IMG/VR virus record: IMGVR_UViG_3300017990_000005
Span: 1 to 37,442 of that record
DNA from: a virus
DNA: 37,442 bases
Direction: 5' to 3' (one strand)
Shown: in pieces, positions 1-5,700 of the stretch
Layout: every line of letters starts with the position of its first letter
Numbering within the stretch: position 1 is the first letter of the stretch
The notes under the pieces: generated by a model
The model's input: the letters and a program-made list of their open reading frames with translations, nothing else
The model's database searches: none
Told to the model about the DNA's origin: nothing
Position numbers and translations under genes: made by a program

Positions 1-123
1 ATTCTTTTCATGCAGAATTGAAAAGTGCTATCGAAATGGTGCCATGGCTTAAGTCTAAATACCAAGTTGGTATTGACTTCATACGTGGTCATAATGGCAC
101 CGAATTCCTTTTCAAAGGGCTGC
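1..123. repeat. Terminal overlap copy, left (identical to 37320-37442)
   Basis: Bases 1-123 match the last 123 bases of the window exactly, and the reading frame of the terminase large subunit continues through the match. The simplest reading is an assembler overlap at the closing point of a circular or circularly permuted genome, giving a unit of about 37,319 bp. A true 123-bp direct terminal repeat is possible but less likely, because the repeat lies inside a coding sequence at no visible boundary. Confidence 0.9.
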
Positions 124-1952
124 ATCGTAACCTTGGATCTGTCAAGTCAATCTCTGACATCGATATATGTATCATCGAAGAAGCTGAGGACGTGAGCGAA
201 GAGGCTTGGAGAGTGCTAGAACCTACGATCAGAAAGCCGAAAAGCGAAATATGGGTTATATGGAATCCTGCCTCTAAGGATTCACCTGTTGACAAAAGAT
301 TCATCAAGAACAAACCTGATCGAACAGCGATCCAACAGGTCAACTGGAAAGATAACCCATTCTTTCCTAATGAGCTGAACGAGCTTAGGTTACACCAACA
401 AAAAACCATCAATCCTGAAATGTATCTACATATATGGGAAGGTGGCTATTTATTCATCTCTGAAGCGCAGATTTTCAAAGGAAAGTATTCGATTCAAGAT
501 TTTGAAATAGATCATTCCTATGGGCATCCCTTACAAGGTCTCGACTTTGGTTTCTCTCAAGATCCAACAGCTGCAAACAGGATCTATATAAAAGATAACA
601 TTCTTTATATTAGAAACGAGGCAAGCCGTGTAGGTCTAGAGCTAGACGAGACGGCAGCATTCATAACAGGAGAGATAGAAGGCTTTGACCAGTATGTCAT
701 AAGGGCAGATTCAGCAAGGCCAGAATCAATCAGCTACCTATCACGCCATGGCCTTCCTTTTATTGAAGGCGTTGAGAAATGGAGTGGTTCGGTTCAGGAT
801 GGCATTGAGTTTATGAAATCTTTTGATAAAATAGTCGTGCATCCCTCATGCAAAGAGACAATAAAAGAGTTTGTTAACTATTCCTACAAGAAGGATGCTA
901 GGACTGGTGATATATTGCCGATCATAGTTGATGCCTATAACCATCATTTAGATGCATGTTTTTGTGGAGACACACTAGTTGTTATAAATGGGAAAACTTT
1001 GAAAATAAGAGACATACCAGAAACAGGTTATATCAAAGGTTTTAACGGTAATTATTTTAAATATGATTTAGGTGGATATATAAAGCACGACAAAGTATAT
1101 CGCATAACAACAAGTAATGGTAAATTCATCAAATGTACTGGTGATCATGAGTTTTTAACCGATGAAGGGTGGATTAAAGCTATTGCCTTAGAAGGAAAGA
1201 AGTTATGCGTATCAAAATTATTTCAGATACAGAGCAAGAATTTAACGGCAAAAGATATAAAAAATACAAAGGTGAAAAATACTATTCACGAGGGACATTA
1301 TTTGGTGGATCTTTCAGAATACACAGGGAAGTTTGGGAATTTCATCACGGAGAAATCGAAAAAAATTATGATATCCATCATATTGATGGCAATACGAATA
1401 ACAATAATATTGAAAATCTTAATAAGATCATCAAAGGAAAACATAGCTCTTTCCACCTCAAATCTTTCCATGCAAGAAATCCAGATTTTGCAAAGAAACA
1501 AATCGAAAAAAATCAAGAAAAATGCAAAGCATGGCATTCATCAAAAGAAGGGCATGAATGGCATAAGAAGCATTATGAGAAAATCAAAGATAATTTTCAT
1601 AAGAAAACTAATAAAAATTGCAAGCAATGCGGAAAAGTATATCTTACATATGATAGAGAAACACCCTTATTTTGCTCAAATAAATGCAAATCTGCACACA
1701 GAAGAAAAAAAGGAATTGATAACGAACAAAGAACTTGTAGCTATTGCGGCAAAAAATTTATTACAAACAAATACAAAAAAAGCGCCCATTGTTCTAGAAG
1801 TTGTTCCTCTAGGAATAGAACCTACGTATTGTTTAAGAGTAAAGAATAGTGGTTGTTTTTCTCTAGAGAATGATCTGATAGTATCAAATTGTAGGTATGC
1901 CCTAACTCCGATGATTAAATCACAACTTTTTGACTACGGGAGTATTCTATAA
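1..1952 (+). CDS. terL: Terminase large subunit, C-terminal part, interrupted by an intein
   Basis: This is the continuation of the gene that starts at 37121; joined across the ends the precursor is 716 codons. Removing the 311-residue intein leaves a 405-residue TerL, a usual size for the terminase_3/PBSX-like family. TerL pumps DNA into proheads with an N-terminal ATPase and cuts concatemers with a C-terminal RNase H-like nuclease. Visible motifs are a Walker B-like acidic stretch (CIIEEAED, about base 170), nuclease motif I (LDFGFSQDPT, about base 540), motif II (RADSARPES, about 705) and motif III, which is HHLDA directly before the intein and CRYALTPM directly after it. The open reading frame enters from base 3 with no start inside the window. 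The stop overlaps the portal start (TAATG). The C-extein is only 20 residues. Confidence 0.93.
   Translation, partial: SFHAELKSAIEMVPWLKSKYQVGIDFIRGHNGTEFLFKGLHRNLGSVKSISDIDICIIEEAEDVSEEAWRVLEPTIRKPKSEIWVIWNPASKDSPVDKRFIKNKPDRTAIQQVNWKDNPFFPNELNELRLHQQKTINPEMYLHIWEGGYLFISEAQIFKGKYSIQDFEIDHSYGHPLQGLDFGFSQDPTAANRIYIKDNILYIRNEASRVGLELDETAAFITGEIEGFDQYVIRADSARPESISYLSRHGLPFIEGVEKWSGSVQDGIEFMKSFDKIVVHPSCKETIKEFVNYSYKKDARTGDILPIIVDAYNHHLDACFCGDTLVVINGKTLKIRDIPETGYIKGFNGNYFKYDLGGYIKHDKVYRITTSNGKFIKCTGDHEFLTDEGWIKAIALEGKKLCVSKLFQIQSKNLTAKDIKNTKVKNTIHEGHYLVDLSEYTGKFGNFITEKSKKIMISIILMAIRITIILKILIRSSKENIALSTSNLSMQEIQILQRNKSKKIKKNAKHGIHQKKGMNGIRSIMRKSKIIFIRKLIKIASNAEKYILHMIEKHPYFAQINANLHTEEKKELITNKELVAIAAKNLLQTNTKKAPIVLEVVPLGIEPTYCLRVKNSGCFSLENDLIVSNCRYALTPMIKSQLFDYGSIL
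1192..1196 (+). promoter_or_regulatory. Ribosome binding site for the nested HNH gene
   Basis: AAGGA, 8 nt upstream of the ATG at 1205, inside the intein codons just after block B. It supports independent translation of the HNH gene from the terminase mRNA. Confidence 0.75.
1205..1849 (+). CDS. HNH homing endonuclease nested out of frame inside the intein
   Basis: A 214-residue protein whose frame is -1 relative to the surrounding intein/TerL frame. It has an HNH motif (HHIDGNTNNNNIENL, residues 58-72) as in HNH_3-type homing endonucleases. Two Cys4 zinc modules follow (C139/C142/C157/C161 and C178/C181/C196/C200) and probably help bind the target. It has its own Shine-Dalgarno AAGGA at 1192-1196, 8 nt before the ATG. 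A stop at 1175-1177 in this frame shows it cannot be a frameshifted continuation from upstream. Its stop at 1847-1849 lies within the intein block F codons. Expected role: cutting intein-less terL alleles to drive homing. Inteins normally carry the endonuclease in frame, so this is a free-standing overlapping gene. Confidence 0.9.
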   Translation: MRIKIISDTEQEFNGKRYKKYKGEKYYSRGTLFGGSFRIHREVWEFHHGEIEKNYDIHHIDGNTNNNNIENLNKIIKGKHSSFHLKSFHARNPDFAKKQIEKNQEKCKAWHSSKEGHEWHKKHYEKIKDNFHKKTNKNCKQCGKVYLTYDRETPLFCSNKCKSAHRRKKGIDNEQRTCSYCGKKFITNKYKKSAHCSRSCSSRNRTYVLFKSKE

Positions 1953-3157
1953 TGTTAGGCAAAAAGAAAGATAAAGATATAGTACCAACAACAGATGGCA
2001 TTACTAGCTTAACCAATGATCTAGTAAACCAACGCAACGCAACAAACACCAATAGATTTAAGTCTCAAAGAATAGACAAACAAGAATTAAGAGAGATGTT
2101 TAGGTGCGGTGTCCCTAGAAAAATATGCAATCTTAAGGCCGGTTATGCTTTGAAAAACACCTTGATATTTGAATCAAGCGTAGATGAACAATATTATAAC
2201 AAGGTATTGTCTAAGCTTGTTAAAAAAGCAGCAAGGTTTCAACTGGGGTTTGGCCGTGGCATTGTCGTACTTTATAATACTGGCGATGATCTTTCACAGC
2301 CTCTTACAGAATCTTTTAATACAAAGAGAGCAAGATTTCATGTCTTTTCAGGCGACATGGTAACTAGTGGAAATATAAGCTTTGATTTACAAAGCCCTAG
2401 GTATTATAAGCCTATTGCCTATACAACAAGAAGCGAATCAATACATTGGACTAGAGTTGTTGATTTCACTTATATTGAACCTGTTGAAAACGATCTTTCA
2501 TTGTATCAGTATGGCGGAATACCCGAACCTGAATTAATCTATAATCAGCTTATGAACGATGCAATAGTGCAAAGATCGAATACAAGCATAATTGAAAAAG
2601 TAAGCACTATTTTCTACAAAATAAAAGACTTCAAAAAACTGCTTCAAATGAAACAAGAGGGAAAGCTTTTAAGCTATTTTTCATCTTTAGAAAATATGAG
2701 GTCAATATACGGTGCTGGTATTGTCGATTTTGATGATGCGATTGAAACTGTCACCCAACAATTGACAGGCCTAAAGGAAATGGATGATACAAGTTTAAGG
2801 CGACTATCATTGGTTACTGGCATTCCTGTGCCTATTCTTGTTGGTGAAAATGTAAAGGGTTTGAATGCTACCGGTGAAAACGAAAGGCAGGTGCTAAACG
2901 ACACTATCTCTAACTATCAAAGCGATTATTTAATAGATCCTATTAACGAATTGATGCGAAAACTAGATAGAGGTGAAGTAAAATTTAAAGATGGCATCGG
3001 AATGTCCCCAACTGATCAAGCTATTTTTGATGATAAGATCATAAAAAACGCGATGAATCTGCAAGCAATGGGAGAGGACTTTGATACCTACCTACTTGAT
3101 TATGGCATTACCAAAGATTCTGATATTGAGAACTTCTTTAGTATTGAGAAGGATTAA
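1952..3157 (+). CDS. Portal protein (DUF1073-like)
   Basis: A 401-residue protein in the canonical place after TerL. It is expected to form the dodecameric ring at one vertex through which DNA enters and to which the tail joins. It matches the phage portal/DUF1073 style: a GLNATGENERQ motif near residue 300 followed by a helical segment (NDTISNYQSDYLIDPINELM), the pattern of the portal stem-to-crown region. The start ATG overlaps the terL stop by one base, so translation is probably coupled. The length is at the short end for portals (400-500). Family membership is from motif and position. Confidence 0.85.
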   Translation: MLGKKKDKDIVPTTDGITSLTNDLVNQRNATNTNRFKSQRIDKQELREMFRCGVPRKICNLKAGYALKNTLIFESSVDEQYYNKVLSKLVKKAARFQLGFGRGIVVLYNTGDDLSQPLTESFNTKRARFHVFSGDMVTSGNISFDLQSPRYYKPIAYTTRSESIHWTRVVDFTYIEPVENDLSLYQYGGIPEPELIYNQLMNDAIVQRSNTSIIEKVSTIFYKIKDFKKLLQMKQEGKLLSYFSSLENMRSIYGAGIVDFDDAIETVTQQLTGLKEMDDTSLRRLSLVTGIPVPILVGENVKGLNATGENERQVLNDTISNYQSDYLIDPINELMRKLDRGEVKFKDGIGMSPTDQAIFDDKIIKNAMNLQAMGEDFDTYLLDYGITKDSDIENFFSIEKD

Positions 3158-3159
3158 TC

Positions 3160-3984
3160 ATGGCTATCGATGTAACCGCACCTAAGGAAACAGAAGCAAA
3201 AGAGGTCAATTATCCGAGGGGTTTTGAAAAGCGTTTTGAACGTGCCATGACAAAGATGGTTGATGCCATGTATCAACAATTTGAAAACCAAGCTATTTTG
3301 GCATTAAACCAAACTACAATTGATAAATTTGAAGACGCAAAAAATAAGCAGATTGGAAACTATGCCGAAGTCTTCAAAACCCTTTCTGCGCGAACAGTAA
3401 GAAAGATAAAAAAGCGTTTCAACAATAGGCGCATAAAGAAGCTTACTAATGACATATTGTCAGCCTTGAGCAAACAAACCCAAAAAGAATTGTACAACAG
3501 CATTCAAGTTGCTACTGGGATTTCTCAAGATGAGCTAGTAAAGCAGGAAAATCTTAACCCCGAAACAAATGCCCTCATGGCCGAAACAGAGGAATGGGTA
3601 AAAAGACTGAGGGACGATAACTTAACCGAGATGGTAGCTTCCACGCTTAGAAATATGTCATTAGGGAATGATATCCAGGGTGTATTAAAAGAATACAAAA
3701 AGCTTGAAAAGAAAAGTAAGAACAACGCTAAATTCGTGGCAAGACAGCAGCTTGCTACCTACAACTCGCTGCAGAATAAAATCAGATATCAGAATTTAGG
3801 GATAACGAAGGCAATTTGGATAACCGCAAAAGATGAAAGAGTAAGACCGTCTCATGCTGATCGTGAAGGTAAGGAATTTGATTTATCCAAAGGACTTTAT
3901 AGTTCGATTGACAAAAAATATTTGCTCCCCGGTATAGACTGGAACTGTCGGTGCGTTTATAAGGTCATTATCCCAGAAGAATAA
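3160..3984 (+). CDS. Minor capsid / head morphogenesis protein (Mu F / SPP1 gp7 family)
   Basis: A 274-residue protein starting 2 bases after the portal stop. The C-terminal third carries the family signature: ITAKDERVRPSHADREG, then PGIDWNCRCVYKVI at the end (Trp/Asp, Arg-x-Ser-His and Cys-Arg-Cys). The N-terminal part is helical and rich in Lys/Glu. Members are minor head components injected or placed at the portal vertex and needed for head assembly. It ends just before a hairpin at 3987-4015, so it closes the first packaging cluster. Confidence 0.9.
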   Translation: MAIDVTAPKETEAKEVNYPRGFEKRFERAMTKMVDAMYQQFENQAILALNQTTIDKFEDAKNKQIGNYAEVFKTLSARTVRKIKKRFNNRRIKKLTNDILSALSKQTQKELYNSIQVATGISQDELVKQENLNPETNALMAETEEWVKRLRDDNLTEMVASTLRNMSLGNDIQGVLKEYKKLEKKSKNNAKFVARQQLATYNSLQNKIRYQNLGITKAIWITAKDERVRPSHADREGKEFDLSKGLYSSIDKKYLLPGIDWNCRCVYKVIIPEE

Positions 3985-4405: not shown

Positions 4406-5700
4406 TGGGATGGACAATTGACGGTGCGCAGAGTGCCAGTGTTCAAGATCCAATACCAGCAGATGGCGACTCTGTATATACCAAAGATATTGACTTAGAT
4501 AATAGCGATAATTACAATTTTACCAATTCTGTTTTGGATTATTTTAATAGTTTAAAAACTATTAATACCGATACAACTGCAAACAATCCGAAGCAGATCA
4601 AAGTAGCTTTCAAGCGCACTATTTATGCAAGCGACATAGGGCTTGGGTGTGATAACCTTTTGGGTAATTTTTCTAATATAAAACTTGAGCTTCTTGGTTC
4701 TGGCGATGTAGTGCGGTTTACACTAGATCTAAGTAGTGACTCAACAAAGTTAAACTCTAAGCTTTTGTCATTCGGACCAAAGGCTTTTAATGGATTTATC
4801 CTAAGCTTTGTTACGGCTGATCAAGTTTGCCTCTCTAATATAACAGTTAGAAAAGAGACAAAAAATAATTCGGTTTTGCAAGCATTAAAACCCGATGGCA
4901 CAGCAGTATTTATCGGTGCTACTGAGTCGGGAAACCTGAAAGTTGCGAATGTAGAAAGCGGACTAGCAATAGCTAAAGGCGATGTAGTAAAAACCTCTTT
5001 TGTTCATAAGTTCGGTCAAGCTCCCGATTTTGATACAGCAGACGGCTTTGTCACTATTTGGGATGGTGCGGATGATGCAAACCTTGATCTAATGAATTAT
5101 GTGTTTTCAACTACAGATGCAATTGATTCTATATCTAGTTCAAATGCAGGAGATACCGAACCACTAGAAATACAAGGGCTTGATGGTGATTACAACCTAG
5201 TAACTCAAGTCGCAACTCTAAATGGACAAAATAGGGTAGCACTAACTACCCCTTTGATCCGTGTATTTAGAATGAAAAATATTGGTTCAAATAATCTGCT
5301 TGGTTTTGCCTATTGTTATGAAAATACTGCTTTAACTGGTGGTGTTCCTACTGACAAAACAAAAGTTAGAGCTTTGATTCAAATAGGTAATAACCAAACC
5401 CTAATGGCAGTGTATACAGTTCCAGCAAATACTTCTTCATATATGCGAGATTGGTATGCAGCTCAATCAAATAGATCTGCTTCAGATGCGATTATCAAAG
5501 TGAAGGCAAGGCCATTTGGTGGCGTGTTCCAGTTAAAGCATATATCAACTATCAAAAGCAGCGGGACAAGTACTTACCAGCATAACTATAAAGAACCAGA
5601 AGTCTTTGAAGAAAAGACAGATATTATAATGGAGTCAGATTCTAGCGTGAATACTGCTTCCGTTGCTGCTGGTTTTGATATTGTTAATGTAGAAAATTAA
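4405..5700 (+). CDS. Virion structural protein (particle-associated, unknown family)
   Basis: A 431-residue protein, beta-rich and acidic. A central part reads IRVFRMKNIGSNNLLGFAYC followed by TKVRALIQIGNNQTLMAVYTVP, a pattern I associate with particle-associated proteins of marine podo- and myophages. Its place between Mu F-like and protease/scaffold genes suggests a head-decorating or head-fibre protein rather than a tail fibre. No enzyme motif is seen. Confidence 0.65.
   Translation: MGWTIDGAQSASVQDPIPADGDSVYTKDIDLDNSDNYNFTNSVLDYFNSLKTINTDTTANNPKQIKVAFKRTIYASDIGLGCDNLLGNFSNIKLELLGSGDVVRFTLDLSSDSTKLNSKLLSFGPKAFNGFILSFVTADQVCLSNITVRKETKNNSVLQALKPDGTAVFIGATESGNLKVANVESGLAIAKGDVVKTSFVHKFGQAPDFDTADGFVTIWDGADDANLDLMNYVFSTTDAIDSISSSNAGDTEPLEIQGLDGDYNLVTQVATLNGQNRVALTTPLIRVFRMKNIGSNNLLGFAYCYENTALTGGVPTDKTKVRALIQIGNNQTLMAVYTVPANTSSYMRDWYAAQSNRSASDAIIKVKARPFGGVFQLKHISTIKSSGTSTYQHNYKEPEVFEEKTDIIMESDSSVNTASVAAGFDIVNVEN

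Follow-up and report, generated by a model that had tools for sequence, protein, structure and literature searches.

Inteins are generally taught as splicing domains that carry an in-frame endonuclease. The phage large terminase (terL) locus described here resembles canonical endonuclease-containing inteins such as PI-SceI in that endonuclease sequence occupies the usual place between blocks B and F. However, its HNH gene is out of frame with the intein and has its own start codon. A second arrangement, the fractured genes reportedly described by Dassa et al. in 2009, is said to place a free-standing endonuclease gene between the two halves of a split intein. The likeness is the pairing of an intein with an endonuclease that is apparently translated separately, and 22 relatives of our HNH gene do lie between separate intein halves, whereas the intein of the present locus is a single ORF that runs on across the HNH gene, with which it is out of frame. 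A 2025 preprint by Gosselin, Arsenault and Gogarten on non-canonical actinobacteriophage inteins (doi 10.1101/2025.01.02.630785) may describe similar inteins, to judge from its title and from a citation concerning overlapping frames in PMC11855218, but the loci of the present set are mostly from outside the actinophages.

In collaborative homing, as outlined in PMC10448857, a free-standing homing endonuclease gene (HEG) adjoins the interrupted gene. Relatives of our HNH gene likewise stand free beside terL in several phages, whereas the HEG of this locus lies within the intein. The methylase inserts of phages ShiLan and Pacc40 contain an out-of-frame HNH gene while the host frame remains open, and the authors, who found neither an intein nor an intron, predicted that the ShiLan insert is unspliced (Arsenault, Gosselin and Gogarten 2025, PMC11855218). 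This insert shares with our locus an HNH with zinc fingers in another frame of an open host gene, as well as an identical offset (host frame = HNH +1 in JN020143). However, no intein halves were found there, whereas they are present here, and the host gene codes for a methylase rather than TerL. Furthermore, the HNH and zinc-finger segments of the ShiLan protein (4510-5100 in locus L150) match our profile in swapped order, indicating a different HNH family. A reading of the DNA made before any database search, hereafter the sequence-only reading, knew of no established example of the arrangement. We found no description of an intein with an overlapping out-of-frame endonuclease gene in the literature searched, although the 2025 actinophage preprint may overlap with the present findings. 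HNH inserts that are out of frame with a host gene which stays open are already published for the ShiLan methylase, though without an intein (PMC11855218).

The window, meaning the entire stretch of DNA that was analysed, comprises the 37,442 bases of an IMG/VR virus record and opens within the phage large terminase gene (Table 1). The N-extein matches the Pfam families Terminase_3 (E = 5.1e-22) and Terminase_3C (E = 2.1e-16), and its match to TIGR01547 is over the cut-off. The intein begins with Cys (957-959) in the motif CFCGDT and closes with LIVSN, the final Asn occupying 1887-1889. It matches the NCBIfam model TIGR01445 (intein_Nterm) with 29.7 bits against a cut-off of 24.5, and its match to Pfam Intein_splicing is under the cut-off of that model. 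Residues C1, G31, T61 and H64 are invariant across 43 relatives in the intein alignment. The required N-terminal nucleophile is Cys both in the window and in 81/81 measured relatives, block B carries its TxxH motif (T61, H64), and the C-terminus has the form of a class 1 intein, with N311 followed by Cys+1. The penultimate His is missing and is replaced by Ser; SN is found in 19/81 relatives and HN in 52/81. Active inteins commonly lack this His, which is usual and not strictly required.

Table 1. Features of the interrupted terL gene, in positions of the window
Feature	Positions	Strand	Remarks
TerL N-extein: remainder of ATPase and RNaseH-like nuclease domain	3..956	+	gene start precedes the window
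Intein, 311 aa, Cys1 to Asn311	957..1889	+	between TerL ...NHHLDA and CRYAL
N-terminal splicing block (A and B), with C1 and T61xxH64	957..1214	+	profile match, 87 bits
Shine-Dalgarno-like AAGGA	1192..1196	+	8 nt 5' of the HNH ATG
HNH endonuclease gene for 214 aa, with an HNH core plus two zinc-binding regions of the CxxC type	1205..1849	+	-1 frame of the intein
Shadow linker, the intein frame across the HNH gene, stop-free	1215..1790	+	low-confidence prediction, chiefly disorder or helix
C-terminal splicing block (F and G), with SN at its end, then Cys+1	1791..1889	+	profile match 1791-1898, 50 bits
TerL C-extein, first residue Cys+1	1890..1952	+	sequence; comparison with intein-less relatives

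The AlphaFold model of the intein has pLDDT values above 90 for residues 1-90 and about 281-311, and values of about 38-82 for residues 90-275. The top Foldseek matches to this model are inteins (E about 1e-5), consistent with a predicted HINT fold. Among solved structures, the one closest to the profile of the intein is gp41-1, a split intein that reportedly originates in the 2009 work of Dassa et al. The insertion site is empty in 43 of 46 TerL relatives checked, where the sequence reads NHYIDA/IRYAL (the slash marking the site) or similar, and these intein-less proteins thus fix the boundaries of the window intein and reveal its sporadic distribution. At the codon for Cys+1 (1890-1892), intein-less relatives mostly encode Ile or Leu, which suggests that the insertion may have brought its own splicing-compatible +1 residue to the terL gene of the window.

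The sequence-only reading described an HNH gene wholly inside the intein in the -1 frame, with an ATG, an AAGGA 8 nt upstream, an upstream stop at 1175-1177 and its own stop within the C-splicing block, all of which proved exact to the base. It likewise held that the intein frame stays open across the overlap, and the TerL frame indeed has no stop from 3 to 1952, intein included. The upstream in-frame stop is a TAA, the HNH frame is open from 1178, and the HNH stop occupies 1847-1849. The encoded protein matches Pfam HNH_3 (E = 4.7e-12), all of the invariant HNH and Cys columns of the family are intact, and AlphaFold predicts its structure with a mean pLDDT of 96.2. I-HmuI (1u3e) is matched at the profile level (E = 1.3e-4), and the corresponding fold search is weak (E = 0.078). 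Thus, the architecture of the locus, a complete HNH gene within the open frame of an intein, is established.

Searching with the HNH protein by tblastn yielded 20 phage records, in which the gene has three kinds of neighbourhood: free-standing by terL, within an intein-bearing terL, or between split terL halves. A search with an HNH alignment then gave 217 relatives in viral contigs, the best 80 of which were used, and 52 in bacterial or archaeal genome contigs. These loci were sorted with profiles for the intein N block, the intein C block and HNH, leaving 148 after removal of duplicates. The intein profiles were seeded from seven early loci that are all out of frame, and frame played no part in the search. 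Both intein halves flank the HNH gene in 104/148 non-duplicate loci (the viral set being the best 80 of 217). A single-ORF intein with a -1 HNH accounts for 77/148 loci, a single-ORF intein with HNH in the other frame for 5/148, N and C blocks carried by separate ORFs for 22/148, loci with no intein for 39/148 and partial cases for 5/148, and since these loci share ancestry the counts are not independent events. By profile classification, the in-frame HNH of canonical inteins is found with a complete intein in 0 of the 104 loci that have both halves.

A control that is blind to HNH gave the same picture. Three scans with TerL exteins covered 142 TerL loci and detected an intein in five, two of which (L176 and L177) are near copies, and all 5 have an open frame with a nested -1 HNH. 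The proposal that an intein is combined here with an independently encoded, out-of-frame HNH, and that both frames are under selection, is supported by stop avoidance in the window, by 82 relatives of like architecture, by the lack of in-frame cases, by the stop-filled controls described below and by the result of the HNH-blind scans (5/5). An assembly error is excluded in practice, since the arrangement recurs across numerous unrelated contigs and in phages that were sequenced separately.

The nearest kin of the window is a Bacteroidales metagenome contig (L098) with identical architecture. Its HNH aligns end to end with that of the window (54-58% identical), and 101/218 differences fall at third codon positions. 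A query with the intein frame gave no matches in phages or viral contigs, whereas the HNH-frame query succeeded, because the shadow linker is not conserved. In the isolates Acinetobacter phage Highwayman (L007, 903-3185), Tetrasphaera phage TJE1 (L009, 984-3170) and phage MD07 (L012, 1128-3176), an over-long TerL annotation spans the intein, and the nested HNH gene is unannotated in 3/3 of these records. An unannotated HNH relative is also located immediately 3' of terL in Brevundimonas phage Poludnitsa (L011, 2471-2986). By eye, two further nested elements occupy other TerL sites instead of the usual C-terminal nuclease motif, one near ...SSIYGFSCY/C SFVDELDE (L123, about 1730) and one near ...QHDAAW/C DELAAW (L135, about 3241).

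The different classes of locus permit a test of selection on the two frames. Joined inteins have no intein-frame stops in 77/77 loci with a -1 HNH, where 3.95 per gene are expected from local codon usage, and none in 5/5 loci with the other offset, where 16.6 are expected. Because openness defines the joined classes, the test is the size of the class. Chance alone is expected to leave between about 3 of the 77 open, from local codon usage, and about 10, from the gene shuffle. The shadow frame of the 22 loci with separate halves contains 6.2 stops per gene versus 5.0 expected, and that of the 39 HNH genes without an intein contains 5.2 versus 4.8 expected, with 2/39 stop-free. Thus, stops are purged solely where a ribosome has to traverse the shadow frame. 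Among nested pairs with 55-90% HNH identity, differences at third positions are 1.6-1.9 times as frequent as at first positions and 1.9-2.1 times as frequent as at second positions, a pattern that resembles that of HNH genes without an intein. The third position of an HNH codon is the second position of an intein codon, and so the amino acids of the shadow peptide appear not to be held by selection. The conserved protein is therefore HNH, with no sign of amino-acid conservation in the shadow linker, and the AlphaFold predictions agree in giving high confidence to the intein ends and HNH and mostly low confidence to the linker. Comparison establishes the upkeep of both frames, as had been suggested from the window, although along its shadow part the intein frame is maintained for its lack of stops and, by the codon-position pattern, not for its amino acids.

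In this Lys-rich HNH family, the -1 offset presents about 4 stops to purge and the other offset about 17. We infer that -1 is favoured as the cheapest frame to keep stop-free, which would explain both the 77:5 ratio and the offset in ShiLan.

For the window considered singly, the DNA must encode HNH, and under this null an intein-frame stop arises solely at HNH codons of the form NTA or NTG (Ile, Leu, Val, Met). If synonymous codons are drawn according to phage codon usage in the rest of the window, 7.1 stops are expected, and the exact probability of having none is 4.2e-5. Shuffling the codons of the HNH gene itself gives 3.15 expected stops and a probability of 0.0016, a conservative value because stop avoidance has itself shaped the HNH codon pool. 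Ile is encoded by ATA in 1/14 cases in HNH versus 38% in the other genes of the window. The sequence-only estimate of a stop in about 8% of random codons agrees with the base composition (8.4%), but the chance of 1 in 10^7 to 10^8 derived from it over 215 codons is overstated, as it uses the wrong null and should be 4.2e-5 given the HNH protein. Thus, the openness of the window is above chance, yet not at the level of 10^-7 for a single sequence, and the proof rests on the comparative set. One could still propose that the frame is open by accident and that a group I intron or a dead insertion accounts for the insert, particularly as the expected stops (3-7) are fewer than was first assumed. 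Given the exact probability for the window and the 82 fully open relatives, and given intein motifs and a predicted fold at both ends of the insert, which argue against an intron or a dead insertion, we find this explanation scarcely credible. The group I intron was also rejected on searching the window and 12 relatives, which have no Rfam covariance match above threshold. Somewhat less improbable, but still very unlikely, is that HNH persists as a passenger in decay or that its ORF goes untranslated. Decay is frequent among intein endonucleases, but a decaying gene is hard to reconcile with the intact invariant and Cys columns, the confident fold prediction and the excess of third-position differences in the end-to-end alignment with L098.

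The manner in which HNH would be translated also has competing explanations. Programmed -1 ribosomal frameshifting could yield an N-intein/HNH fusion in place of internal initiation; a -1 slip would reach the preferred offset, and the HNH ORF is open for a short way 5' of its start in most loci. However, an X_XXY_YYZ heptamer is present in just 7/77 loci and is absent from the window, so that a slippery site is not shared and programmed frameshifting was rejected on this ground. The five loci with the other offset also argue against it, and the -1 preference is expected without frameshifting from the ease of keeping that frame free of stops. Furthermore, a start codon lies near the expected place in 81/82 nested loci and is mostly ATG. 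The ATG nearest the expected HNH start has a mean Shine-Dalgarno (SD) match of 3.88, versus 2.62 for same-frame ATGs of the N-extein (p = 1.3e-8). Matches are short in many relatives (3-4 nt in 53/81), and the SD support is thus a clear group trend that is modest in size. Frameshifting is very unlikely on these grounds, and internal initiation of HNH translation is plausible. A different proposal is that the window intein acts as a split intein, its C half being made from an internal start, in which case an open shadow frame is not needed. This is how 22 related loci appear to be organized. Their N ORF ends 3 to 132 nt past the N block and a candidate start is located near the beginning of the C half, which in Brochothrix phage BL3 is the annotated gene gp3, and they look like split inteins. 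However, separate halves gather stops at the neutral rate whereas joined inteins have none, and the window belongs to the joined class, making this proposal highly improbable for the window.

Two relatives have unusual arrangements. In Exiguobacterium phage vB_EauM-23 (L004, 2201-3174), terL stops at NNH and its C-extein (CDATRYAM...) resumes past the HNH gene; no intein halves were seen and no Rfam intron was found at this interruption. In L037 (about 2700-3600), a complete terL and HNH are followed by a second, degraded TerL C-terminus (CDAMRYACMW...), and the shadow frame is open across. The arrangement resembles what a nested element might leave behind next to a terL gene that had been repaired.

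Evidence for mobility comes from one pair of near-identical phage sequences. Locus L204 is occupied by an element related to that of the window, inserted exactly at NH/C, whereas L205 is empty, and upstream the two share 99.5% DNA identity across 3,169 bases, whereas the 2.7 kb compared downstream are 94% identical. The presence and absence of a related element in this pair establish its mobility. No near-identical empty relative of the window's own phage was found among those seen. On the HNH tree, the nested state changes at least 16 times, with 9 of these changes forced by strongly supported branches and the bootstrap not settled, and by this evidence the nested, split and free states interchange. 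In a Mantel analysis, distances among the HNH genes correlate with those among the inteins beyond the effect of TerL (partial r 0.40, p 0.001), which, given a poor TerL alignment (mean identity 19%), offers a hint that HNH and intein may be transferred jointly.

We therefore favour, with a probability of roughly 0.87, a model in which the terL insert is a composite mobile element that combines a splicing-competent intein with an HNH homing endonuclease whose translation starts internally, in a frame that overlaps that of the intein. According to this model, the ribosome translating terL would pass straight across the insert, and the conserved intein ends would form a HINT domain that excises the insert and ligates TerL. 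The middle of the insert, as a complete -1 frame HNH gene that has a start codon of its own, would be expressed by internal initiation. In phages that co-infect the cell, the HNH protein might then cut terL alleles that lack the intein, close to the insertion site, and repair would copy the whole element into the cut allele. When read in the intein frame, the HNH gene would provide a passive linker, from which selection removes stops without holding the amino acids.

We also think it fairly probable that this locus represents a class of inteins, widespread among phages, whose homing endonuclease is an overlapping out-of-frame gene and not a domain, as a third way of joining splicing to homing, with free, split and nested states that interchange repeatedly and with -1 as the cheapest frame. 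If so, there would be a common alternative to the in-frame endonuclease, in which one stretch of DNA gives rise to two proteins, a folded enzyme and a stop-free linker. The joined and split inteins that share one HNH family would constitute a natural experiment on overlapping genes. The likely route to such a composite element begins with a neighbouring endonuclease gene, and nested elements are in turn a plausible source of split inteins. The arrangement would also explain why, in phage genomes, some TerL annotations are too long and some endonucleases have been missed.
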